A DNA stretch of 64,000 bases from Streptomyces sp. T12 (GTDB taxonomy: Bacteria > Actinomycetota > Actinomycetes > Streptomycetales > Streptomycetaceae). The stretch is from NCBI RefSeq assembly GCF_028736035.1, contig NZ_CP117866.1, forward strand, positions 3,472,001 through 3,536,000, read 5' to 3'. A program made the translations under genes and the position numbers. Below, piece by piece: positions 4,351 to 49,945 of this stretch. The notes under the pieces were generated by a model. That model searched no databases and was not told where the DNA came from. It was given only the letters and a program-made list of their open reading frames with translations. Numbering within the stretch: position 1 is the stretch's first letter; each line of letters begins with the position of its first letter.

Positions 4351-4360
4351 CCTCTTGTGC

Positions 4361-4445
4361 AGGAACTGCAGCGTCACAGGAACTGCAGCGTCACAGGAAC
4401 TACGGCGTCACAGGAACTACGGCGTCACAGGAACTACGGCGTCAG
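4361..4445. repeat. 17-bp direct tandem repeat, five copies, running into the bioY stop codon
   Basis: Units start at 4361, 4378, 4395, 4412 and 4429. Copies 1-2 read AGGAACTGCAGCGTCAC, and copies 3-5 read AGGAACTACGGCGTCA followed by C or G. The last copy contains the TCA that is the bioY stop codon on the minus strand. Confidence 0.95.
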
Positions 4446-35827: not shown

Positions 35828-37762
35828 TCAGATGTCCAGGTCGACACCGATTCCGGGCAGGAGACCGTCCAGGATCGAGCCGGATCCGGGGAGTTGCGGG
35901 AGGCCCGGGATCCAGCCCGAGTCGATGACCGTCGCCCCGGTGGACATGGTCTTCGGCTCGGCCTCGTCGAGGTCCCAGCTCGCGCCCGGGCTGGTGTCGT
36001 ACAGCGGTTCGTCGGGCGGGATGTCGCCGGATGTGAGGGGCCAGACCACCGAGCGGAACTTCCCGGACTCGGCGTACCCGAGGAACCCGTGTCCGGCCGA
36101 CTCGCCCTTCACCGCCGCCTTCCCGTCCGGGGTGATGACCAGCCACTCCAGCTTCGTGGAGGCGACCGTCAACCGGCCCTGCGCGGCGGGGACTTCGAGG
36201 ACGGCCGTCCCGGCCGGGACGGTGGAGTCCGCTGCCGGGTACTTGCCCACCACGGTGAAGGCGCTGCCCTCCACGGTGCCGAGGCCCGTGAGGGCGCCGG
36301 CCCGCGGGTCGTAGACGACGACCATCGTCCGGGCGTCGTCCGAGGCCCTGTCGTCGTCGGTGACCGTGACCTTGAGGGTGTTCATGCCCGCGTGTCCGAA
36401 AGCGTGCGTGACGGTGCACGTGTTGTCCTCGGCCGCGAACGTGGACGTCGTTCCGTCGTCCCAGACGACCTCGCAGGTGTGGGTGTCGTTGGCGCCCGGG
36501 TCGGTGAACGACGCGTTGATCCGCACGGTGTCCTCGACTCGGTACACGTCCCAGTCCCGCGGCCCCTCCAGCTTCAGGACGGGCGCCACGTTCTTCACCG
36601 TCACCACCGCGCTGTCGCTCACGGGCCGGTTCACCCCGTCGTCAGCGGTCAGCGTCACCCGGTACGTCCCGTCGTCCGTGCATGTGACGGTGGTCCGCGG
36701 GCTCGACGCGTCGTCGAACGCGCAGGTCGCGCCATCGTCGACACCTTCGACGGGCTCGTACGACCATGTGGTCCCCGGCTGCCCGGCGTCGTCCCAGGCC
36801 TCCCCGGCGAGCTTGATCTTCGACCCTTCGTCACCGCTGACGTCGGGGCCCGCGTCGACGATGGGGGCGAGGTCCTCAGGGGTATCGCCGTTGTCGGTCG
36901 GCGGGATGTAGCCGTGGCCCTGTCCCGGACCCCAGTTGCACTTGTGCTCCATCGCCTCGGAGATGTCGGTGATCTCGTCCCAGGGGATGTTCGGCCGTTC
37001 GGCTTCGAGGTCCCAGGTCGGCCCGCCCTCGCCGCGGATCTCGCCGCCGATCGCGTACCGCACGTGGCACCACAGCTGCTTGTACATCGAATCGCGCTGG
37101 TCGTCAGTGAGGTCGGCGGGCAGCGGAGTGCGTTCCAGGAGCTCGTCCCAGATCCTGTCCGCCATCTCCGTGCTGCCGTCGGTGGCAGCCTCCTTGGTCC
37201 ATACGAGGCTGGCCGTGACCGTCTTCTGGCTCGTGCCCTCGATGTCCTCGACGTAGACGCTGGAGTGCGGGAACAGCGCGGAGTCCGGGTCGTACGAGTA
37301 GGTCCCCAGCCAGTCGTCCAGGTACGCGCTCCCGGCGTACTTGATGTCGCCGTTCTCGTCCCGCAGGGAGACGTACCAGCTCATCTCCTTCAGCTCGGAG
37401 GTGTCGTTCCTGATGTTCAGGGTGTGGTAACCCAATGAACCGAAGACCGCGTTGCACTCGTCGGAGAGTTTCGCGACGACGACCCTTCCGGCGACCGCGT
37501 AGGTCACGTACGGCGTGAGCCCGTCCTCGCAACGGTCGATGACCTGGAACGAGTTGACGCCGGGACCGGGGCGCCATTCCTTGTGGAAGTAGTGCAGTCC
37601 CGAGTTGAATCTGGCGTTCGCGAGCAGGTTTGCGTCTTCGTCACGGATGGTGTCGGCGGACGTCGCCGCGTACGCCGTGGAAGTCAGGCCGGCGGCGGGC
37701 AGGGCCAGTAGCCCGATGGTCGCGCAGAACGCGACCAGGAGCCGCAGTATTCGTCTTCGCAT
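35828..37762 (-). CDS. Secreted PKD-domain protein of unknown function
   Basis: 644 aa. Signal peptide (RRRILRLLVAFCATIGLLALPAAG, cleavage near AYA-ATS). Residues about 40-290 form a domain with several Cys (CEDGLTPYVTYAVAG, DECNAVFGSLGYHTLNI, QLWCHVRYAIG, HKCNWGPGQGHGYIPP) resembling the DUF2599-type region. Two PKD/Ig-like repeats follow (PIVDAGPDVSGDEGSKIKLAG, CTDDGTYRVTLTADDG; FTDPGANDTHTCEVVWDDG, TVTHAFGHAGMNTLKVTVTDDD). The end (LPQLPGSGSILDGLLPGIG) has no anchor. GAGGGGG precedes the ATG. Likely extracellular binding or adhesion role. Confidence 0.85.
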   Translation of the reverse strand: MRRRILRLLVAFCATIGLLALPAAGLTSTAYAATSADTIRDEDANLLANARFNSGLHYFHKEWRPGPGVNSFQVIDRCEDGLTPYVTYAVAGRVVVAKLSDECNAVFGSLGYHTLNIRNDTSELKEMSWYVSLRDENGDIKYAGSAYLDDWLGTYSYDPDSALFPHSSVYVEDIEGTSQKTVTASLVWTKEAATDGSTEMADRIWDELLERTPLPADLTDDQRDSMYKQLWCHVRYAIGGEIRGEGGPTWDLEAERPNIPWDEITDISEAMEHKCNWGPGQGHGYIPPTDNGDTPEDLAPIVDAGPDVSGDEGSKIKLAGEAWDDAGQPGTTWSYEPVEGVDDGATCAFDDASSPRTTVTCTDDGTYRVTLTADDGVNRPVSDSAVVTVKNVAPVLKLEGPRDWDVYRVEDTVRINASFTDPGANDTHTCEVVWDDGTTSTFAAEDNTCTVTHAFGHAGMNTLKVTVTDDDRASDDARTMVVVYDPRAGALTGLGTVEGSAFTVVGKYPAADSTVPAGTAVLEVPAAQGRLTVASTKLEWLVITPDGKAAVKGESAGHGFLGYAESGKFRSVVWPLTSGDIPPDEPLYDTSPGASWDLDEAEPKTMSTGATVIDSGWIPGLPQLPGSGSILDGLLPGIGVDLDI

Positions 37763-38239
37763 GGTGTCCCCCTCAGGTTGTGTGGTGCGGCGTCATGGAA
37801 GCGCTTGCGACAGAAGGCGAGCCAACTCGGCGCGCGGGGAGGGGAGTTGTCTTCACCGGCCTTCACCAGAACCTCACGAGGGCGCGTCATCGCCGTGTCC
37901 GTCACCGCGGAGCGGTTCGCGCTGCCTCCCTGGGTTTCCCGGTCGCGGTGCAGAGGGCGGCTATGAGGAGGAGACCACGCGACCGGATTCGGCGCCGGGC
38001 GCCCTATAACTTTTGAGGTTTCGGGCAGCGTGCCATCGGCCGACGATGAGTGAGCCGTCACCGCGAGAGGTGACGCGAGGAACGGGGCAATGGGTCGCCG
38101 AGACGTCTCGTCGTTCCGTCCGTCCTGGTCGTCGTCCCGGCTGCCTCCCCCCGGGGGGAGGGAGCAGCCCGGCTGACCTGACGCTGCCTACGTTCGCAGC
38201 AGTGCCGGAACCTGCTTCGACGTCGAAAGGACCGCACGC
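37763..38239. other. 477-bp non-coding interval with an 18-bp palindrome
   Basis: Separates the divergent PKD-protein and repeat-protein genes. The main structure is the perfect palindrome CCTCCCCCCGGGGGGAGG at 38144-38161, about 80 bp before the repeat-protein start, an operator or hairpin candidate. Open frames here (e.g. 38046-38243) lack ribosome sites. Promoter positions are not evident. Confidence 0.5.
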
Positions 38240-39343
38240 ATGATCGCGCTTATGGACCCTGAGGTGGGTGCCGAGGCACCTGCCCGCGCCCTGGACACAC
38301 CGGCTCTCCGCCCCGTCACGTTGAAAGGCAGCGGTGGGGGCATCGGCAGCCGCAGGCCCGTCTGCCGCCCTGCCAGGTTGAAGGGCGGCGGCCCTACCGC
38401 CGGAACCCGCACCCCTGTCCGCCACCCCGCCACGTCGAAGAACGGCCCTAGCGTCGGCACCCGCAGGTCTGTGAGCCGCACCGCCACTTCGAAGGGCCAC
38501 CCTGGCGTCGGCACCCGCGGCAAAGGCGGTCCGGGCGCGGGTAACCGTGTGTCTGTCGGCCACACTGTCACGTTGAAGGGCACCCCTGGCGCCGGTAACC
38601 GCAGGCCGGTGCACCGCCCTGCCACCGCGAAGGGCGGCTCTGGCATCGACAGCCGCCGCAAGGGCAACCCGGGCGTTTCTGGATGCAAGTCCGTTAGCCG
38701 CGCCGTCACCTTCAAGGTCGGTTCGGGCGTCGGTGGCCGCAGGCCCGTCCGCCACCCCGCCACCGCGAAGAGCGGCGGCCCGAGCGTCGGAACCCGCAGG
38801 ACCGCGCCACCTGCCACCGCGAAGCACACCCCTGGCGTCGGAACCCGCAGGCCCGTCCGCCACCCCGCCACCGCGAAGGGCGGCCCTGGCATGGGTACCC
38901 GCAGGCCCGTCCCCCACCCCGCCACCGCGAAGAGCGGCCCTACCACCGGGACCCGCAGGCTGGTGGGCCGTCCTGCCACAGCGAAGATCACCCCTGGCGC
39001 CGGAACCCGCAGGCCGGTGCACCGTCCTGCCACCGCGAAGGGGGGCATCGGCGTCGGTACCCGCAGGACCGTGCAGCGCCCCGCCACCGCGAAGGCCGGG
39101 CCGGGCGTCGGCACCCGCAGGCCCGTGCACCTCCGCGCCACCGCGAAGGGCGGCGGACCGACCACGGGGAGCCGCAGGCCCGTGCACCTCCCCGCCACCG
39201 CGAGGGGCGGCGGCCCGAGTGCCGGTACCCGTAGGTCTGTCCGCTACCCCACCGCACCGCAGGGCGGCATCAGCATCAGGGGCGGCGTCAGCATTGGCGA
39301 GCGGTCTCGCAGGTCCATCCCTGTTGGTCCGAGCGGGATCTAG
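38240..39343 (+). CDS. Basic 18-residue tandem-repeat protein (possible multi-core peptide precursor)
   Basis: 367 aa. A leader-like N-terminus (MIALMDPEVGAEAPARALD) is followed by about 16 repeats with consensus RPVRHPATAKGGPGVGTR, then a short tail (SIGERSRRSIPVGPSGI). Almost every unit carries one PATAK Lys and ends in an Arg-Arg junction; two units have 10-residue insertions. The protein is strongly basic, Gly/Pro-rich, without membrane segments or a classical signal. AAAGGA lies 8 nt before ATG. Wobble positions are nearly all G/C, but the antisense frame shares them, so coding strand rests on the start, ribosome site and operon direction. It is 43 nt ahead of a GNAT gene and ABC exporter. 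Function unknown. Confidence 0.6.
   Translation: MIALMDPEVGAEAPARALDTPALRPVTLKGSGGGIGSRRPVCRPARLKGGGPTAGTRTPVRHPATSKNGPSVGTRRSVSRTATSKGHPGVGTRGKGGPGAGNRVSVGHTVTLKGTPGAGNRRPVHRPATAKGGSGIDSRRKGNPGVSGCKSVSRAVTFKVGSGVGGRRPVRHPATAKSGGPSVGTRRTAPPATAKHTPGVGTRRPVRHPATAKGGPGMGTRRPVPHPATAKSGPTTGTRRLVGRPATAKITPGAGTRRPVHRPATAKGGIGVGTRRTVQRPATAKAGPGVGTRRPVHLRATAKGGGPTTGSRRPVHLPATARGGGPSAGTRRSVRYPTAPQGGISIRGGVSIGERSRRSIPVGPSGI
38354..39286 (+). repeat. Tandem array with 54-bp period, about 16 units
   Basis: Units vary from 51 to 57 bp (two are 84 bp). The best-conserved block is CCCCGCCACCGCGAAG plus ACCCGCAGGCCCGT. Copies from about 38720 onward are the most alike, suggesting recent expansion there. Confidence 0.9.
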
Positions 39344-39386
39344 GCGACGCCAGCTCCGGCTGGTGGCGGCAGACGGGAGGGAACTG

Positions 39387-39965
39387 ATGGGGCGCCCACA
39401 GATCACGGTGGAGCGGTGGGAAGGGCTGGAGTGCGCCGCGCAGCTCGACGTCGTGCTGCCGATGTACAAGGAGATCTGGACCGAACCGCCGTACTGCGAA
39501 GGGCCGAAGGAGATCGCCGAGTTTCTGGACCGGTTCGCGCAGGAGGTCTTTCTTCCCCGCGCCCGCCTCGTCGTGGCCCGCTGCGGTGACCTGCCCGTCG
39601 GCTACGCCTTCGGCTACCCCCTGCCGCAGGACACCGGCTGGTGGAAGGCGATGGACGAGGAGACGACGTCAGAGTTCGTGGCCGAGACCGGTAGGCGCAC
39701 CCTGGGCATCGTCGAACTCGCGGTACGCGCCGACTGGCGGCGGCAGGGGGTGGCGGCCCGGATGCACGACCGTCTCCAAGAGGGTCTGGGCGTCGAGCGC
39801 GTCACGCTGGCGATGCGGCCCGATCCGGAAGCGGCACCCGCGCACGCCACCTACGCCGCTTGGGGCTACCGCCAGGTCGGCCGGTGGACGCCGGCCGAGG
39901 ACGGGCCCGTGTCCCACATCATGCTGCTGAACCTGCCGACCGCCGCGCGCGAGGTCCTCCGGTGA
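39387..39965 (+). CDS. GNAT-family N-acetyltransferase
   Basis: 192 aa. Acetyl-CoA-binding motif A is LGIVELAVRADWRRQGVAARMHDRL (R-R-Q-G-V-A), with the preceding beta strand and the C-terminal AHATYAAWGYRQVGRW typical of the fold. GGGAGGG precedes the ATG. It lies 43 nt after the repeat gene and its stop overlaps the ABC ATPase GTG (GTGA), so one operon. Possible substrate: Lys or N-terminus of the repeat protein or its fragments, by context only. Confidence 0.88.
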   Translation: MGRPQITVERWEGLECAAQLDVVLPMYKEIWTEPPYCEGPKEIAEFLDRFAQEVFLPRARLVVARCGDLPVGYAFGYPLPQDTGWWKAMDEETTSEFVAETGRRTLGIVELAVRADWRRQGVAARMHDRLQEGLGVERVTLAMRPDPEAAPAHATYAAWGYRQVGRWTPAEDGPVSHIMLLNLPTAAREVLR

Positions 39966-40939
39966 CCGGCAACGCGATCGAGGTCCGGGAGCTGACCCGG
40001 CGGTATACGCGCAAGGGCAAGCCCGACCTGTGTGCGCTGGATCAGGTGAGCCTGGCCGTCCCGCAGGGCGAGGTGCACGGGCTGCTCGGCCCGAACGGCG
40101 CCGGAAAGACGACCTTGTGCCGCATCCTGTCCACGGTGCTGTTGCCGTCGTCCGGCAGCGTCACCGTCCTGGGGCGGGACGTCGTACGTCAGGCGGGAGA
40201 GGTCAAGCGGCTGATCGGGATCGTCTTCGGCGGGGACCGCGGCCTGTATCCCCGGCTCACCGGACGGCAGAACCTGGAACTGTGGGCCTCGCTCTACGGG
40301 CTGCGCCGCACAGCCCGCCGCGATCGGGTCGGGGCTCTGCTGGAGCGGGTTGGTCTGTCCGACCGTGCCGAGGAGAAGGTCCAGACCTACTCGCGCGGCA
40401 TGAAGCAGCGTCTGCACTTGGCGCGCGGTCTGGTCTGCGCCCCAGGGGTCCTGATCCTGGACGAGCCGACCGTGGGCATGGACCCGGTCGCCGCCCACGA
40501 TTTCCGCAAGCTGGTACGGCAGTTGCGGGCGGGCGGGCACACCGTCCTGATGACCACGCACGACATGGCCGAGGCCGCGGCCCTCAGCGACCGCGTCTCG
40601 TTCCTCGACAACGGAAAGCTGACCCTGACCGCGAGCCCGGAGGCGGTCGGCGAGCTCGTCTCCACCCACGAGCGGCTGGACGCCCGCGGCCTGCCCGCCG
40701 CGCTGCGGGAGCAGGTCGCGGCGCTGCCGGGGGTGGTGGCCGTGACGGCGGTGACTGCGGTGACGGCGGTCGAGCAGGACATCATCCGGATCGAGACCGA
40801 GACCCCCGAGGCGACACGCGCCGTGATGCTGCTGCTCGTCGAGGAGGGGGTCACCGACATCGCGCGTACCCGGCCCTCGCTGGAGGAGGCCTATCTCCAC
40901 CTCGTCGGCCGCCGCCGCGGCATGGCGGTCGGCCAGTGA
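39962..40939 (+). CDS. ABC exporter ATP-binding protein (ABC-2 type)
   Basis: 325 aa. Walker A GPNGAGKTT, Q-loop region VFGGDRGLYPRLTGRQN (Gly in place of the usual Gln), signature YSRGMKQRLHLARG, Walker B VLILDEPTVGMD, H-loop TTHDMAEA, and a C-terminal extension with a repeated VTAVTAVTAV tract. DrrA/CcmA-like drug or peptide exporter type. Start overlaps the GNAT stop. Confidence 0.9.
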   Translation: MTGNAIEVRELTRRYTRKGKPDLCALDQVSLAVPQGEVHGLLGPNGAGKTTLCRILSTVLLPSSGSVTVLGRDVVRQAGEVKRLIGIVFGGDRGLYPRLTGRQNLELWASLYGLRRTARRDRVGALLERVGLSDRAEEKVQTYSRGMKQRLHLARGLVCAPGVLILDEPTVGMDPVAAHDFRKLVRQLRAGGHTVLMTTHDMAEAAALSDRVSFLDNGKLTLTASPEAVGELVSTHERLDARGLPAALREQVAALPGVVAVTAVTAVTAVEQDIIRIETETPEATRAVMLLLVEEGVTDIARTRPSLEEAYLHLVGRRRGMAVGQ

Positions 40940-41006: not shown

Positions 41007-41744
41007 GTGGTGGCCATGCGGCGGGACACCAGCACCTACGACGCGCTGAACATCGCGCCGTTCCAGACCCTGGTCCTGATGTCGGTGACGGAGTTCAGCG
41101 GCCGGGACGACCTCAACGCGTACGCCGTCGTCGCGCCCACGCTGATGACGATGTGGACCTGCGCGCTGATCTTCACCACCGACCTCGTCTTCGAGGACAA
41201 GGAGGACGGCCGGATGGAGACGATGATCGCCACCCCCGCCTCCTTCCCACTGCTGGTCTTCGGCCGGCTCTGCGGCTGCATGCTGCTGACACTGCCGGCC
41301 TTCGGGCTGACGATGCTGGTGGCCGGCGGGGTCTTCGGCTACTGGATGCCGGTACCGCATCCGCTGGTGTTCGCGGCCGCCCTGCTGCTGGCGGCGGTGG
41401 GCACCGCGGCGGCCGCCACCGCCGTCTCGGCGCTGTTCGTGATCCGGCCGAGCTCCTACGCCCTGGGCAACGCGATGGTCTACCCGGTCCTGCTGCTGAG
41501 CGGGGTGATGGTCCCCGCCGCGCAGTTGCCCGGCCCACTGGAGGCGGTCAGCCGGCTGAGTTACCTGGCGTGGGCGGCCGAGCTGCTGCGCGATGCCACC
41601 GACCCGTCGCCGGTGGCGTACGCCCTGCTCCGGCTGGGTGTCGTGCTGCTGCTCGGTGTGCTGCTGCTGGGCGTTGGTGTGGCGGCCATGTCCCGGTTCC
41701 TGCGCCGGGCGCGGGAGCTGGGCGTGCTGGCCGGCGACGCATGA
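41007..41744 (+). CDS. ABC-2 type permease, N-terminus apparently frameshifted
   Basis: 245 aa in the long frame, with six hydrophobic segments and the ABC-2 pattern (FEDKEDGRMETMIATPAS, YPVLLLSGVMVPAAQLPG). The natural start should be GTG 40936, which overlaps the ATPase stop (GTGA) and reads SGFVTGLRFQWW. That frame then ends at 41049, while MRRDTSTYDALNIAPFQ, the evident continuation, is in the other frame from 41016. One base appears lost near 41010-41016, so the first 25 residues are cut off. Starts at GTG 41007/41010 or ATG 41016 lack a ribosome site. Confidence 0.75.
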   Translation: MVAMRRDTSTYDALNIAPFQTLVLMSVTEFSGRDDLNAYAVVAPTLMTMWTCALIFTTDLVFEDKEDGRMETMIATPASFPLLVFGRLCGCMLLTLPAFGLTMLVAGGVFGYWMPVPHPLVFAAALLLAAVGTAAAATAVSALFVIRPSSYALGNAMVYPVLLLSGVMVPAAQLPGPLEAVSRLSYLAWAAELLRDATDPSPVAYALLRLGVVLLLGVLLLGVGVAAMSRFLRRARELGVLAGDA

Positions 41745-42625: not shown

Positions 42626-43852
42626 TCAGCCGATATGCGGCGGTACAGACATGACCTCCGAAAGAACACGGTGCTCCGTGTGCGAGCCCGCCCGGCTACC
42701 GGCCTTCACCGGCTCCTTCCCGCAGAACTCCGCCTCGATCACCGCCTCCGTATCCCCCGCCCAGTCCCCGTTGAGGTTGAAGGCCAGGGAATGGCGGCCG
42801 TCCTTGGTCGTGATCGCCTCCGATATGGAGCCGTGGATGCCGCCACCATGGCCCCAGACGGTGACACCGCAGGACAGCTCGGCCTTCATCAGGCCGAGAC
42901 CGTAGCCGCTGCCCTCATCGAGGGGGACGGTCGTGGTCATCTCGGCCAGCTGCTCGCGCGGCAGGAGCTTGCCGCGCAGGAGGGCCGAGTAGAAGCGGTT
43001 GAGGTCGGTCGAGTTGGAGATCATCTCGCCGGCCGCGTAGGCGAGGGACGGGTTGAGCTTCGTGACGTCGTACGACGGCCCCGTCGCCGTCTCCGCCAGC
43101 TTGGAGTAGGCCCGGCTGCTGGGCTGCGGCACCGTCACCCGCGTGCCGGGGACGGACGTGGCGGTCAGGTGCAGGGGCTTGACGATGCGCTCACGGATCG
43201 CGTCGCCGTACGGGCGGCCCGTGGCCTTCTCGATCACCATTCCGGCGAGCACGAAGTTGGTGTTGGAGTAGTTCCAGGACGTCCCCGGCTCGAAGTCCGG
43301 CTTGTGCGTCATGGCGAGCGCGACCAGTTCCCCGGGCTTCTTCGTGTCGTAACGGTGCTCGAAGAAGCCGTCCTTGAGGAAGTACGTGCGCCCGAACTCC
43401 TCGTCCGCCGTGTAGTTGTAGATGCCGCTGGTGTGGTTGAGGAGCTGGCGCAGGGTGATCCGGTTGCCGTCGTGGCCGTTGCCCCGCACCCGGCCCGGCA
43501 GCCACTTCTCCACCGTGTCGTCCAGCGACAGCCTGCCCTCCGCCTCCAGCTGGAGCAGCACGGTGGCCACGAAGGTCTTGGTGATGCTGCCCACCCGGAA
43601 GCGGTCGTCCGCCGAACGCGGCTTCCCCGTCTTGAGGTTGCCGACGCCCGCAGTCGCCGACCAGGCGTCGTGGCCGTCCCTCGCCGTCGCCGTCACTCCG
43701 GGGACGCCTGCGTCTACCGCCGCCTGGATGGCCTTGCTGGTCGCGTCGTGGCCGGCTCTGTCGGGCGCCGCCACCGCTGGGGCCGCGAGGGCCACGGACA
43801 GTGCCACCGCCGTCGTCGCCCCGAGGGCCGTGCGGGTCGTACGTACGCTCAT
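42626..43852 (-). CDS. Secreted serine hydrolase (class C beta-lactamase / DD-peptidase type)
   Basis: 408 aa. Signal peptide to about VAAPD. Active-site motifs of the SxxK family: nucleophile in VGSITKTF, YSN in SWNYSNTNF, and HGG in VWGHGGGIHG. Overall similar to Streptomyces R61 DD-carboxypeptidase and esterase-like relatives. Acts outside the membrane on peptidoglycan peptides or small esters. Monocistronic; C-terminus has a short tail without anchor. Confidence 0.92.
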   Translation of the reverse strand: MSVRTTRTALGATTAVALSVALAAPAVAAPDRAGHDATSKAIQAAVDAGVPGVTATARDGHDAWSATAGVGNLKTGKPRSADDRFRVGSITKTFVATVLLQLEAEGRLSLDDTVEKWLPGRVRGNGHDGNRITLRQLLNHTSGIYNYTADEEFGRTYFLKDGFFEHRYDTKKPGELVALAMTHKPDFEPGTSWNYSNTNFVLAGMVIEKATGRPYGDAIRERIVKPLHLTATSVPGTRVTVPQPSSRAYSKLAETATGPSYDVTKLNPSLAYAAGEMISNSTDLNRFYSALLRGKLLPREQLAEMTTTVPLDEGSGYGLGLMKAELSCGVTVWGHGGGIHGSISEAITTKDGRHSLAFNLNGDWAGDTEAVIEAEFCGKEPVKAGSRAGSHTEHRVLSEVMSVPPHIG

Positions 43853-43951
43853 GCCTCTCCCCCTTCTGCACGCTCACGTCGAGCGTGGTCGGAGGGAGAG
43901 ACCGGGCGCATGCTGCGAAAGTTGAAGCGGGAGACGCCAGTTGAGCGCGTT

Positions 43952-45742
43952 TCAGCCCTTCTTGAGGACCAGCTCCGTGTTCCGGTCCCTGCGCTCCCCC
44001 GCCAGCGTCGACCGGGCGCCCGGTGCGTTGAAGGACAGCTCGCGGTAGAGGGCGGCCAGGCCCGTCTGGGAGAGGTCCGTGAAGTCCGTGGCGTGCGGGG
44101 CCGAGGACTCGATCAGGGTGGTGAAGAGCGAGATCGTGCCGTCCTTGTTGTCCACCACCTCGATGATCCGGGCGAGTTGGGGGAAGTCGACGTGGGAGGC
44201 GGTGGAGATCTCCCAGAAGGAGCCGCCGTCGGCGCCGGAGCGCGGGGTGATGACGTTCTTGTGGATGTGGCCGTTCACCCAGGCGAGGACGTTGCGGTGA
44301 CCGGCGAGCAGCTCGACCACCTCGGCGCCGCCCACGCGCCGCTCGTTCGGGCGGGCCGGGTCGCGGCGGAGGTTGCCCATCGTCTCGCTGGTGTGATGGC
44401 TGAAGACGATCGCGTACGAGTCCTTGTTCTCCCGCAGCGTCCGGTCCAGCCAGTTGAACTGGGCCGCCCCGATGGACCCTTCGTAGTGGCCGCCCGGGTC
44501 GGTGGTGTCGAGGCTGATGCCGATGACGTCGTCGGCGATGCGGAAGCTGTAGTACTGGGTGTTCGCGTCCAGGTTGGCCGTCGAGTAGCCGTGGCCGACC
44601 GGACCGAGGCCGCGGTGGGCCGGGTTCAGGTGGGCCTGCAGATAGTCCCGGGGCGTGAACGGGGCCCGGCTCTCGTCCGGCGTGACCGAGCGCATCGAGC
44701 GGGCGTGCGCCTTGAGGAAGTCCTTGAAGACGGTGCCCCGCGGGTCCTTGTCCTGCTTGAGGGAGTCCTGGAGCTTCTTGGCGTCCGCGGCCGAGACGTT
44801 CATCAGCTTCTTGCCGCCGACGGCGAGGTCGGTGAGGTAGGAGTCGCTGTGCGAGGCGTAGGTGCCGAGCGGCATCGCGTCGTGGTTGCCGACCGTCGAG
44901 TACCAGGGGATGTTCAGGCCGGGGCTGCGCAGTTCACGGATCGCGGCGGCCAGAAAGCCGTCGATGTGCGGGAAGCCGAGCTGCTTGTCGGCGTCGCGGA
45001 CACTGTCGTCGGCCTGCCAGTACAGCTTCAGGCCGCTGTTCTGGACGCCCTCGTACTGCCGCGGGTCACCGGTGTTCGGGGTGACGCGGCCGCCGCTCAT
45101 CACCGTCAGGAACCACTCCAGCTCGGACTTGCAGTTGTTGTCCGTGTTGTCGCCGGTGGTCATGGCGAAGTGGAACGGGGCGCCGGTGACGGGGGCGCCC
45201 CGCAGCGCGTTGATCCGCTCGACGAGCGCGACGGCGCCGGGCACGGTCAGCGCCTCCTGCGGCCGCCAGGCGTGCACGTCGGTGGAGCGCAGGTACTCCA
45301 GCCGCAGCGGGTGCTGGGCGTCGATCAGATGCAGGTCGGTGAGCTGTACGAAGGCGGCGAGCGCCGTACGCCGGCTCTCGCGCCCCGACTTGGCCGCCGC
45401 CAGGTTCTCGCGGACGACCCGCTTCCAGCCGGGACCGTGGCCGAGCCGGCGGTAGCCGGAGGTGCCGCGCGGGGCGGCGACCGAGGTGAGGGTGGTGCCG
45501 CGGGTGTACGGCGCGAGCGCGACCGGCAGTCTGCGGGAGGCACCGACGGGCGCCTCGGCGGCGGCGGCGCCCGCGGCGGCGCCCGGTGCGCTCGCGGGGG
45601 TCGTGGTGGTGGCGGCCTGGCTTTCGGTGGGCCGCAGGGCGTAGCCGACGCCCGCGGAGAGGGTCACCGCTCCGGTGGCGGCGAGCAGGGTACGGCGGTG
45701 GACCCCCAGCGCGGAGCTGGCGACAGAGCGTATGCGCGACAT
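43952..45742 (-). CDS. Tat-exported metallophosphoesterase (TIGR03767-like)
   Basis: 596 aa. N-terminus GVHRRTLLAATGAVTLSAG is a twin-arginine signal. The calcineurin-like dimetal site is complete: VQLTDLHLID, MTTGDNTDNN, STVGNHDAM, VFSHH, and NGHIHKN. The length and insertions match the secreted family called TIGR03767. Probably hydrolyses extracellular phosphoesters. Start at 45742 follows GGGGAG. A Pho-box-like pair lies 200 bp upstream (45940-45961). Confidence 0.9.
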   Translation of the reverse strand: MSRIRSVASSALGVHRRTLLAATGAVTLSAGVGYALRPTESQAATTTTPASAPGAAAGAAAAEAPVGASRRLPVALAPYTRGTTLTSVAAPRGTSGYRRLGHGPGWKRVVRENLAAAKSGRESRRTALAAFVQLTDLHLIDAQHPLRLEYLRSTDVHAWRPQEALTVPGAVALVERINALRGAPVTGAPFHFAMTTGDNTDNNCKSELEWFLTVMSGGRVTPNTGDPRQYEGVQNSGLKLYWQADDSVRDADKQLGFPHIDGFLAAAIRELRSPGLNIPWYSTVGNHDAMPLGTYASHSDSYLTDLAVGGKKLMNVSAADAKKLQDSLKQDKDPRGTVFKDFLKAHARSMRSVTPDESRAPFTPRDYLQAHLNPAHRGLGPVGHGYSTANLDANTQYYSFRIADDVIGISLDTTDPGGHYEGSIGAAQFNWLDRTLRENKDSYAIVFSHHTSETMGNLRRDPARPNERRVGGAEVVELLAGHRNVLAWVNGHIHKNVITPRSGADGGSFWEISTASHVDFPQLARIIEVVDNKDGTISLFTTLIESSAPHATDFTDLSQTGLAALYRELSFNAPGARSTLAGERRDRNTELVLKKG

Positions 45743-45939
45743 GGCGCGGTCTCCCCGAGTGCGAACGCGTCGGCAGTGGTCGCGGGTGGTCGCCGAGGCG
45801 AACCTCCCGCTCACTGTGGATCGTTGGCACCGGGGATGACCTGTGCATGAACATGGCGGCAACGGGCAGCGCCGATCACCGTACGTGGATCTTGGCCCAC
45901 CCTCCGCGTCCACGGCCGCTCCTTCAACGGCCGGAACGC

Positions 45940-45973: not shown

Positions 45974-46435
45974 CTATTTCCCGGCGGTTTGGATCCGCCC
46001 CGCGGCCGGCCGTTCGCGCCACAGCGCCAGCCCCTTGTCGACCATGGAGACGCGCGTCAGACCCGTCACATCGTCCAGGGGGTGCCAGGCCGCCATGTCG
46101 GTGGAGCCGTTGGCCTCGTAGCGCAGGTCGCCGCCGGTGATCCGGGCCTCGTAGACGAGCCGTACGCCGTGGTGGTCGACGGCCCGGCCGAAGCGGCGGA
46201 TCGGGAACACGCGATGGGAGGAGTCGATGCCGAGCAGGCCGGTGGGCTCGACGAGGTAGCCGGTCTCCTCCTCGACCTCCCGCACGACCGTGTCGTAGGG
46301 ATCCTCACCGTGCTCCATGCCGCCGCCCGGCAGGACCCACTCGAAGCCGCCGCCGGGCGCCGGGGACCGGGCGAGGAGGAGCTGTCCGTCACGTACGCAA
46401 ATGGCGTAGGCCGCCACCCTCAACTTCTTCTGCAC
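45974..46435 (-). CDS. NUDIX hydrolase
   Basis: 153 aa. Complete Nudix box GGGMEHGEDPYDTVVREVEEETGY, giving Mg2+-dependent hydrolysis of a nucleoside diphosphate linked to another group. The N-terminus KKLRVAAYAICVRDGQLLLAR is the usual first strand. Substrate not predictable. Divergent from the subtilase gene. Confidence 0.92.
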   Translation of the reverse strand: MQKKLRVAAYAICVRDGQLLLARSPAPGGGFEWVLPGGGMEHGEDPYDTVVREVEEETGYLVEPTGLLGIDSSHRVFPIRRFGRAVDHHGVRLVYEARITGGDLRYEANGSTDMAAWHPLDDVTGLTRVSMVDKGLALWRERPAAGRIQTAGK

Positions 46436-46607
46436 GTACGGACGTTAAACGGCCGAGGCCGCATCGGGCAGGCGATTATTCAGCTTGCGGGCGACTTGCC
46501 CTTTTCGCTCCCTGCGCCCCAATTGCATAGGGGGTTTCCCCCATCCCTCCATTTCGATTCGGTCAACTCTTCCCAAACATCCTTCCCTTGCGTAAGGCTG
46601 TGCGGTC

Positions 46608-46628
46608 GTCCGGTATCGCATACCGGAC
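46608..46628. promoter_or_regulatory. Palindrome upstream of the subtilase gene
   Basis: GTCCGGTAT-CGC-ATACCGGAC, 9-bp perfect arms, 32 bp before the start codon. Operator or 5'-leader hairpin. Confidence 0.5.
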
Positions 46629-46660
46629 AGCCGATGCTCCTTTACCAACAAGGGATGCCG

Positions 46661-49600
46661 ATGACCCTCACCCCCCAGCGCGAACCCAAGCCGGGCGCGA
46701 GACGCGCGGCCCGCATAGCCGTGGCCGCAGGTCTCGTCGCCGCGCTCTCCGCAGCCGGGCCGATACCCATGGCCATGGCCGGGGACCCCGCGCCCGCCGC
46801 GGCGGACCCGAGCGTCAAGTCCGCGCACGACAAGCTCGGTTCGGACGACGCCGATCTGCTCGCCGAGGCCAAGGCCGACGGCGACAAGAACGTCACGATG
46901 ATGATCGCGACCGCGCCCGGCCAGACCGAGGAGGTCGCCGAGCAGCTGGACGCGGTCGGCTCTGTGGGCCGTACCTACGACAAGCTCGGCTACGTCCGGG
47001 CCACCGTCCCCACCGGCAAGGCCGACTCGGCCATCGCCGCGGCGGCGAAGCTCTCCTCGGTGCACGGCATCGACCTGCGCGAGGAGATACCCCTGGAGGA
47101 CCCCGCCGTCGACACGAAGGCGTCGACGGCCGCTGCGACCTCGTACTCCGCGCCGAACAAGAACACCCCGGCCGAGAACCCGTACAACCCGTCCTTCGAG
47201 ACGGGCGCCGTCGACTTCGTGGAGGACAACCCGAAGGCGGACGGCCGCGGCATCACCATCGGCATCCTCGACTCGGGCATCGACCTCGGCCACCCGGCGC
47301 TGCAGAAGACCACGACCGGTGAGCGGAAGATCGTCGACTGGGTCACCGCCACCGACCCGCTCCTCGACAGCGACCGCACCTGGCGCCCGATGGTGACCTC
47401 GGTCTCCGGGCCCACCTTCACCTACGGCGGCAAGTCCTGGACCGCGCCTGCCGGTTCGTACCAGGTCAGCACCTTCCTGGAGTCGTACACCACCGGCGGC
47501 GACGCGGCGGGCGACGCCAACCGCGACGGCGACAAGACCGACTCGTGGGGCGTGCTGTACGACGCCGCGGCCGGCACGGTCCGTGTCGACCTCAACAACA
47601 ACAACGACTTCGGTGACGACACCCCGATGAAGCCGTACAAGGACGGCTTCCAGATCGGCTACTTCGGCACCGACAACCCGGCCACCGACGTCGCCGAGCG
47701 GCAGCCGTTCGTCGTGCAGATCCGCAAGGACGTGCCGATGGACCCGCTGGGCGGCGACTGGGTCGGCCAGAAGCGCGACTTCGTCAACATCGGCGTCATC
47801 GAGTCCGAGCACGGCACCCACGTCGCCGGCATCACCGCCGCGAACGGCCTGTTCGGCGGCAAGATGAACGGCGCGGCCCCGGGCGCGAAGCTCGTCGCGT
47901 CCCGTGCCTGCACCTGGACCGGCGGCTGCACCAACGTCGCGCTCACCGAGGGCATGATCGACCTCGTCGTCAACCGCGGCGTCGACATCGTCAACATGTC
48001 CATCGGCGGCCTCCCGGCGCTGAACGACGGCAACAACGCCCGCGCCGAGCTGTACACGCGGCTCATCGACACGTACGGCGTGCAGCTGGTGATCTCGGCG
48101 GGCAACTCAGGCCCCGGCGCCAACACCATCGGCGACCCGGCCCTGGCCGCCAAGGTCATCTCGGTCGGCGCGACCATCTCCAGGGAGACGTGGGCCGCCA
48201 ACTACGGCTCGGTCGTGTCCAAGCCGTACGCGATGATGCCGTTCTCCTCGCGCGGCCCGCGTGAGGACGGCGGCTTCACCCCGACGCTCTCCGCGCCGGG
48301 TGCCGCGATCAACACCATCCAGACCTGGCTGCCGGGCGCCCCGGTCGCCGAGTCCGGCTACTCGCTCCCGGCCGGTTACGGCATGCTGCAGGGCACCTCG
48401 ATGGCGTCCCCGCAGGCTGCGGGCGCGTCCGCGCTGCTGCTGAGCGCCGCCAAGCAGAAGGGCATCGCCCTGACGCCGGCGAAGCTGCGCACGGCTCTCA
48501 CCTCGACTGCCGACCACATCAAGGGCGTTCAGGCGTACGAGGAGGGTGCCGGCCTCATCAACATCGAGGACGCCTGGGACTCGATCCGTGACGGCGCCAC
48601 CGCCCACGAGTACACGGTCAAGGCGCCGGTCGACACCGCGATCGACCAGTTCCTGAAGACCCCGGGCTTCGGCACGGGCGTCTACGACCGCGAGGGCGGC
48701 CTCAAGACCGGGCAGAAGAAGACGTACGACGTCACGATCACCCGTACGTCCGGCGCGGACAAGGCGATCCGGCACGAGCTCCACCTGGAGAACAACGCCG
48801 GGGACACCTTCCGGATCGTCGGCGACGACGAGATCAGCCTCGGCCTGAACAAGCCGGTCACCGTCCAGGTCGCCGCCAAGCCGTCGTCGGCCGGCATCAA
48901 GAGCGCGATCCTGGAGGTCGACGACCCGCGCACCGAGGGCATCGACAAGCAGGTCCTCAACACGGTCGTGGTCTCCGCGCCGCTGAAGTACACGTACTCC
49001 GCGGCCGGTTCGGTGCAGCGCAACAGCAACAAGTCGTACTTCGTGACCGTCCCCGAGGGCGCGAAGTCGCTGGAGGTCGCGATCGGCGGGCTGAAGGACA
49101 AGAGCCAGACCCGGTTCATCGCCATCGACCCGACCGGCGTCCCGTCCGACACCACGGGCACCCCGAACTGCTACAACAACTACCTTGGCGGCAACGGCTG
49201 CAAGCCCGACGTGCGGTCGTACGCCAACCCGCGGGCCGGCGTCTGGGAGATCGAGGTCGAGTCTCGGCGTACGTCGCCGCTGCTCGACAACCCGTACCAG
49301 CTCGACGCGCAGGTGCTGGGCGCGACCTTCGACCCGGCGGAGAAGACCATCGCCGAGGCGAAGATCGGCACTCCGGTCACGGCGGAGTGGACCGTCACCA
49401 ACGAGTTCGCCGCGATCGACGGCAGCCTGAAGGGTAGCTCCCTGGGTTCGGGGCTGGTCAGCGAGAAGACCATCGCGGACGGCGAGTCGCAGGAGACCTC
49501 CCTCACCCTCCCCGAAGGTGTGGAACGTCTCGAGGTGGCGATCGGGGGTGTCTCCGACCTGAAGGCGGACCTCGACCTCGCGGTGCTCAAGGACGGCCAG

Positions 49601-49945
49601 GTCGTCGGGCAGTCCGCCGACGGTGACTCCGAGGAGTCGGTCAGCCTGACCGCGCCGGCCGCCGGTACGTACACGATCGTCGTCGACGGCTACTCCGTTC
49701 CCAGCGGATCGACGTCGTACGGCTACAAGGACGTGTACTTCGCGCCCTCTCTCGGCGCGGTGACCACCGATGCCTCGAAGGCCGTGAAGCTGGCGAGCGG
49801 CGAGTCGGCGAAGGTGTCTGCCGAGGTCCTGGTGAAGGGCGCGGCTCCCGAAGGCCGCAAGTTCTTCGGCGAACTCCGGCTGGTGAACAGCCGCGGCACG
49901 GTCGCGGGTACGAGCACGGTCACCATCGAGAAGGCCGTTCCGTAG
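46661..49945 (+). CDS. Large secreted subtilisin-like serine protease (S8 family)
   Basis: 1094 aa. Signal peptide (ARRAARIAVAAGLVAALSAAGP). Propeptide-like region to about residue 190, then the S8 domain: Asp in ITIGILDSGIDLGHPAL, His in ESEHGTHVAGI, the oxyanion Asn in ISAGNSGPGAN, and Ser in GTSMASPQAAG. A large insert sits between Asp and His (AGDANRDGDKTDSWGVLYD, EF-hand-like Ca site). The C-terminal 450 residues are beta-sandwich repeats including two pre-peptidase-like domains (SLEVAIGGLKDKSQTRF and RLEVAIGGVSDLKADLD). ATG 46661 was chosen over ATG 46655 because AAGGGA overlaps the latter. Confidence 0.93.
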   Translation: MTLTPQREPKPGARRAARIAVAAGLVAALSAAGPIPMAMAGDPAPAAADPSVKSAHDKLGSDDADLLAEAKADGDKNVTMMIATAPGQTEEVAEQLDAVGSVGRTYDKLGYVRATVPTGKADSAIAAAAKLSSVHGIDLREEIPLEDPAVDTKASTAAATSYSAPNKNTPAENPYNPSFETGAVDFVEDNPKADGRGITIGILDSGIDLGHPALQKTTTGERKIVDWVTATDPLLDSDRTWRPMVTSVSGPTFTYGGKSWTAPAGSYQVSTFLESYTTGGDAAGDANRDGDKTDSWGVLYDAAAGTVRVDLNNNNDFGDDTPMKPYKDGFQIGYFGTDNPATDVAERQPFVVQIRKDVPMDPLGGDWVGQKRDFVNIGVIESEHGTHVAGITAANGLFGGKMNGAAPGAKLVASRACTWTGGCTNVALTEGMIDLVVNRGVDIVNMSIGGLPALNDGNNARAELYTRLIDTYGVQLVISAGNSGPGANTIGDPALAAKVISVGATISRETWAANYGSVVSKPYAMMPFSSRGPREDGGFTPTLSAPGAAINTIQTWLPGAPVAESGYSLPAGYGMLQGTSMASPQAAGASALLLSAAKQKGIALTPAKLRTALTSTADHIKGVQAYEEGAGLINIEDAWDSIRDGATAHEYTVKAPVDTAIDQFLKTPGFGTGVYDREGGLKTGQKKTYDVTITRTSGADKAIRHELHLENNAGDTFRIVGDDEISLGLNKPVTVQVAAKPSSAGIKSAILEVDDPRTEGIDKQVLNTVVVSAPLKYTYSAAGSVQRNSNKSYFVTVPEGAKSLEVAIGGLKDKSQTRFIAIDPTGVPSDTTGTPNCYNNYLGGNGCKPDVRSYANPRAGVWEIEVESRRTSPLLDNPYQLDAQVLGATFDPAEKTIAEAKIGTPVTAEWTVTNEFAAIDGSLKGSSLGSGLVSEKTIADGESQETSLTLPEGVERLEVAIGGVSDLKADLDLAVLKDGQVVGQSADGDSEESVSLTAPAAGTYTIVVDGYSVPSGSTSYGYKDVYFAPSLGAVTTDASKAVKLASGESAKVSAEVLVKGAAPEGRKFFGELRLVNSRGTVAGTSTVTIEKAVP

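Follow-up and report, generated by a model that had tools for sequence, protein, structure and literature searches.

What is made from an open reading frame (ORF) that repeats one short basic unit many times over, and what do its neighbours suggest about the use of the product? We addressed this question for a locus of Streptomyces sp. T12 that lies within a window of 64,000 nucleotides, which is the whole stretch of DNA analysed. The preliminary description had placed a repeat ORF on the plus strand at 38240-39343, and this was borne out: the ORF starts with ATG and encodes 367 residues, comprising a 38-residue leader, 17 inner units and a non-repetitive tail of 36 residues (Table 1). Ten of the inner units are 18 residues long, four have 19 residues, one has 17, and the remaining two, which are without the PVRHPATA part, have 10. 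At the DNA level, Tandem Repeats Finder reported a 54-bp period with 8.9 copies at 38726-39211 and 2.0 copies at 38389-38494 (77-78% matches). The further claim that a Lys and an Arg-Arg boundary occur in every unit holds nearly but not strictly, since in the window array Lys is present in 16 of the 17 inner units and Arg-Arg at 14 of the 18 boundaries. Over the twelve arrays described below, these counts are 100 of 104 inner units and 89 of 116 boundaries, the other 27 boundaries not being Arg-Arg.

Table 1. Features of the array locus, with positions in the window.
Feature	Position	Strand	Basis
Conserved upstream block CCCTATAAC..AGGTTTC with inverted repeat GTCACC-N6-GGTGAC (38057-38074)	38002..38074	+	Alignment
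Ribosome-binding site GAAAGGA	38225..38231	+	AGGA 8 nt 5' of ATG; same spacing in 12/12 array ORFs
Leader, 38 aa, MIALMDPEVGAEAP...	38240..38353	+	Start M[IL][AT]..[DEN].E in 12/12 arrays
17 inner repeat units, consensus RPVRHPATAKGGPGVGTR	38354..39232	+	Repeat analysis and unit counts
Non-repeat tail with GERSRRSIPVGP, and stop	39233..39343	+	Tail motif (GERSRR-x-x-P) common to 7/12 array ORFs
GNAT-family N-acetyltransferase, 192 aa	39387..39965	+	Pfam PF00583; 3' of array in 9/9 clusters
ABC transporter ATPase	39962..40939	+	PF00005 above cut-off; TIGR01188 DrrA below its cut-off; start overlaps GNAT stop
ABC-2 permease 1 (probable; start uncertain)	41007..41744	+	Weak NodJ/DrrB matches, below cut-offs
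ABC-2 permease 2, 283 aa	41741..42592	+	PF01061 above cut-off

A protein search with the 367-aa ORF gave no match at E<=0.001 among 7994 scored candidates, and no family of Pfam, NCBIfam or PADLOC matched the window array at E<=0.001. Among 61 genomes up to class level the array protein was found in its own genome only; it was not found in plasmid records, and searches of open-licence papers listed none that describes it by title or abstract. A profile built from six arrays recovered only three relatives from the protein collection, all hypothetical Streptomyces proteins (67, 77 and 106 aa). At the DNA level, the own genome carries a second copy of 237 aa (L004, minus strand 7680-6967), and a contig scan with the array revealed arrays in S. 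dysideae RV15 (184 aa) and S. coelicoflavus NBRC 15399 (170 aa). Searches that started from the downstream GNAT gave arrays in the genomes G074 (88 aa), G337 (486 aa), G357 (149 aa) and G665 (331 aa), the last with an identical translation at both chromosome ends and with a second cluster, G665b, besides; a search of genomes with the array profile added a 106-aa array in G207. Together these are 12 array ORFs from nine clusters and one remnant cluster (the own genome twice and seven other Streptomyces genomes), with 2 to 24 inner units per array. In G665b (L030:4266-5334), three array ORFs stand in tandem with ATGA overlaps, the third ends early, and the GNAT gene after them is spread over two frames. 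In the remnant cluster of G207 (L035:1468-2364) the array is open, the MFS gene is fragmented, and the GNAT, for which tblastn gave no match, is present only as its first ~15 residues, recognised by eye.

The pattern of substitutions argues for a protein product. The preliminary description had suggested comparing the units by dN/dS, and for the 55 18-aa units with Lys near position 10, to which this comparison was restricted, the value in the sense frame (0.59) was the lowest of the six frames, the other five giving 0.66-1.24. Leader codons 2-8 of the 12 arrays gave a pN/pS of 0.49 in the sense frame and 0.75-4.26 in the other frames, while the 17 tail codons shared by seven arrays differ 57, 0 and 126 times at codon positions 1, 2 and 3, respectively. 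In frame-blind alignments, from which the second array of G665b was left out, 86 of 152 gap runs were multiples of three and length 3 was the commonest (70 runs), a result that is supportive only, as the gap costs were low. The absence of stops in the sense frame follows from how the ORFs were selected. These data show a protein-coding family that is presumably translated in the cell, and the array has the layout of a RiPP precursor gene, being predicted to encode a ribosomal precursor with a core and, if the first 38 residues act as such, a leader.

The preliminary description had also judged the repeats to be recently expanded, and this was not supported. For the same 55 units, differences per site were nearly as frequent within arrays (30.7%) as between arrays (31.7%), and the ten 18-aa units of the window share a mean nucleotide identity of 0.71 (range 0.56-0.87). 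Two units of the S. coelicoflavus array have identical protein sequences. The array is old overall, with some recent copies. When unit order was shuffled, 4 or fewer of 200 shuffles were as good as the actual order in only 3 of 28 array pairs (two G665a units were mis-split in this test, and the last units of the first two G665b arrays were treated as tails). Between species, then, the order of the units is largely not preserved, a pattern that gain and loss of units would produce.

The most constant companion of the array is the GNAT gene. The GNATs 3' of the arrays are 77-88% identical to that of the window. Since five of the nine clusters were discovered via the GNAT and four via the array, a count that starts from the array matters here. 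Of 392 genomes drawn, four had the GNAT (E<=1e-70) and at least five matched the array profile (E<=1e-4), namely those four and G207, with the best seven candidates scored per genome and the GNAT and array draws assumed to be one set. A motif scan at 12 loci with GNATs of 44-54% identity found an array at none of them, and 99 plasmid records with GNATs all had identities below 60%. The array is tightly linked to one GNAT clade. At seven of the 12 distant-GNAT loci, the preceding ORF appears by eye to encode one related protein. Another candidate frame, the GNAT frame extended upstream through the array (ORF 38733-39965), was rejected: the GNAT frame of the own-genome copy is open for only 192 aa, and this frame gave a dN/dS of 1.03 in the units.

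The AlphaFold2 model of the window GNAT is well folded (pLDDT 88.4). Foldseek placed 8osp (E 1.9e-10) and the GNATs PaiA, Ard1 and RimI (best rows 9.8e-10 to 4.5e-8) among its best fold matches of known structure; identities were 10-19% among the 50 matches listed, and a sequence search for solved relatives gave none at E<=0.01. As modelled, the fold is no guide to the substrate, which counts against the reading that we prefer below. With a pI of 5.2-5.5 in three GNATs and of about 12 in ten arrays, charge-based binding between the two proteins is plausible.

The exporters behave differently from the GNAT. An intact exporter adjoins the array in seven of the nine clusters, six times an MFS protein (PF07690, PF05977; the one of G357 is divergent) and in the window the ABC-2 pair, while the clusters of S. 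dysideae and G665b are without an intact exporter of their own. ABC remnants are present at three loci (L004, L005 and L006). Exporter type thus switches while array and GNAT persist, which means that exporters are frequent, exchangeable partners. PADLOC gave no match for the array, GNAT, permease or MFS proteins, and the ABC gene matched general ATPases only.

Beyond the genes described above, a flank comparison of the array loci by tblastx, which is noisy, revealed no common protease, tailoring or other shared gene. Downstream of the array, the window encodes a large subtilase (PF00082) with a PPC domain at 45989-49945, which we do not take to be a processing protease because the same noisy comparison gave no clear counterpart at other loci. 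Upstream, on the minus strand at 35828-37762, lies a gene for a PKD-domain protein with a DUF2599 match that, from the appearance of its N-terminus, is probably secreted. By eye, an AfsR/SARP-like regulator gene stands divergently upstream of the array at two loci (L004:8960-12125 and L030:1-3264). Elsewhere in the window, a 17-bp unit occurs in five head-to-tail copies at 4360-4444 (97% matches; the period is not a multiple of three), and 14316-14405 matches the sodF sRNA (Rfam RF02790, 89 bits).

The region 5' of the array is also conserved in part. The CCCTA-AAC...AGGTT core of the upstream block aligns in six of the 10 aligned array ORFs, and the block is probably a promoter or regulatory element. 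Sequences like the inverted repeat were seen in the 5' regions of the S. dysideae, S. coelicoflavus and second own-genome arrays, and this repeat is a possible operator. Rfam gave a single match near the array, which was under its gathering score. Within the arrays, locally rare codons are abundant: AGG accounts for 89 of 355 Arg codons compared to 31 of 343 in 14 nearby genes (a reference that excludes the wrong-frame ORF 42635-45850), and TCT for 36 of 184 Ser codons compared to 6 of 252. Among the 124 Arg-Arg pairs of the 12 array proteins, AGG encodes the second Arg of 80 pairs and the first of only 2, and the combination CGC-AGG makes up 67 of the 124 pairs but only 2 of 37 in the nearby genes. 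Shared descent of the units may be enough to account for this bias.

Taken together, our preferred though tentative reading, to which we assign a probability of about 0.45, is that the array encodes a multi-unit precursor, the peptides of which would be acetylated by the GNAT and exported. In the translated precursor, a short leader would be followed by a basic peptide with a Lys, repeated many times, and the chain would be cut into units; the adjacent GNAT would acetylate either the Lys conserved in the units or, after release, the N-terminus of each unit; and the adjacent exporter (the ABC-2 pair in the window, MFS in most relatives) would carry the product out, where it may act, unless export serves self-protection. 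This reading is favoured by the ribosome-binding site and start shared by 12 arrays, the low dN/dS, the GNAT link, the swapped exporters and the near-constant Lys, as well as by the variable number of inner units and the three tandem array ORFs of G665b. Against it stand the lack of a shared protease or tailoring gene in the flank comparison, the 27 of 116 boundaries that are not Arg-Arg, the two of nine clusters with no intact exporter, and the divergent MFS of G357. Host proteases might do the cutting instead. The low variation at most unit positions, as seen in a set of 76 units chosen for a Lys near position 10 (so that Lys is constant by construction), is unlike that of hypervariable cores and argues in the same direction. 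A multi-core precursor cut at dibasic sites had already been named as one possibility in the preliminary description, which did not mention the GNAT and exporter link that now speaks for the idea. The proposed cutting fares less well: the residue after the 89 Arg-Arg junctions is Pro in 28 cases and Ser in 30, and Pro at this place disfavours cutting after the pair. A cut after Arg-Arg would thus often meet Pro, while a cut between both Arg residues would not.

The main rival, which seems somewhat unlikely to us, is that the product stays intact, is disordered and strongly basic, and has nucleic acid, polyphosphate or a cell-wall polymer as its polyanionic partner, with the GNAT tuning its charge at the unit Lys in the manner of histone tails and the exporters serving something else. 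The version with nucleic acid as the partner was named in the preliminary description, and we judge it no differently. The AlphaFold2 model of the array, built from a 6-row alignment, is disordered (mean pLDDT 44.5), and the net charge of ten arrays ranges from +11 to +103; together with the Lys of nearly every unit and a unit number that is free to vary, this is what such a protein would predict, but the MFS or ABC-2 exporter beside seven of nine clusters and the members of just 67-106 aa would be left unexplained. In resistance, GNATs are often partnered by DrrA-like ABC or MFS_3 pumps. A second rival takes the GNAT and the efflux pump, whose families are those found beside the array, as a cassette that confers resistance to a compound from outside; the array would be a linked peptide with a different role, as a regulator, a decoy for that compound or a slow-translating regulatory ORF. 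The richness in rare codons speaks for this rival, yet known attenuator peptides do not resemble array ORFs that span 67-486 aa and are conserved as proteins, and the array of G207 is open despite the remnant state of its GNAT and MFS genes, a loss that could be recent; we hold this explanation to be rather improbable. That the repeats are DNA which codes for nothing, or codes on the antisense strand, and simply happens to be open is very improbable; the preliminary description had considered the non-coding form of this idea. Most of the antisense sequence is indeed open (frame -1 is stop-free in 10 of 12 arrays), and frame -2, which shares its wobble position with the sense frame, comes close to it in the units (dN/dS 0.66) and fits the 17-codon tail equally well (pN 0.085/pS 0.406 compared to 0.088/0.359), but frame -2 is discarded, as 18 stops interrupt it in seven of the 12 arrays and its fit to the leader is poor (0.98 compared to 0.49), frame -1 is little constrained (0.88 in units, 0.91 in leader), and ribosome-binding site and ATG (12 of 12) as well as the frame are kept in relatives, on which that description had made the idea depend.

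If the precursor reading is true, the locus makes peptides and would be missed by family-based genome mining, as there was no model match in three libraries and only three relatives were recovered by the profile; in addition, product amount would be coupled to repeat number. A bolder form of this reading, which is possible though doubtful, is that the arrays represent a new class of Streptomyces peptide product. Here one ribosomal precursor would give as many as about 24 basic peptides, a dedicated GNAT would acetylate the one Lys that each of them contains, MFS and ABC pumps would be interchangeable for export, and repeat number would set the dose. Array and GNAT form a two-gene core that is easily testable in laboratory Streptomyces.

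Several known peptide systems share parts of this arrangement. The lasso peptide albusnodin is acetylated on a highly conserved Lys, and its Streptomyces cluster includes a gene for a putative acetyltransferase; the array loci share the gene, and the modification is what we propose for their products. A difference is that the source, as excerpted, describes no repeat array (PMC9266682). The lasso peptidase family PF13471 (transglutaminase-family) has three matches in five array genomes, the nearest one on the same contig being 265 kb from the array and that of G074 sitting on a different contig. By this lasso peptidase search, the arrays do not belong with the albusnodin-type lasso peptides. 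Microcin C has a ThiF-like enzyme, and in the five array genomes ThiF (PF00899) has 22 matches, of which the nearest on the same contig is >400 kb off (the 1770 contigs of G074 make it a weaker case). According to the excerpted source, microcin C is a ribosomal peptide with the acetyltransferase MccE and an efflux pump as self-immunity, and most array loci likewise pair an acetyltransferase gene with an exporter gene, but microcin C is encoded by one tiny 21-bp gene instead of a repeat array (PMC6795089). Judged by the ThiF search, the arrays are not microcin C-like members either. The precursors of apidaecin and other proline-rich peptides of insects contain several near-identical Arg/Pro peptides each (PMC11678341). 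These differ as insect genes with pre- and pro-sequences, and the comparison is an analogy only. Within it, the RPV-x-x-P of the array units is the feature that may resemble apidaecin-type peptides.
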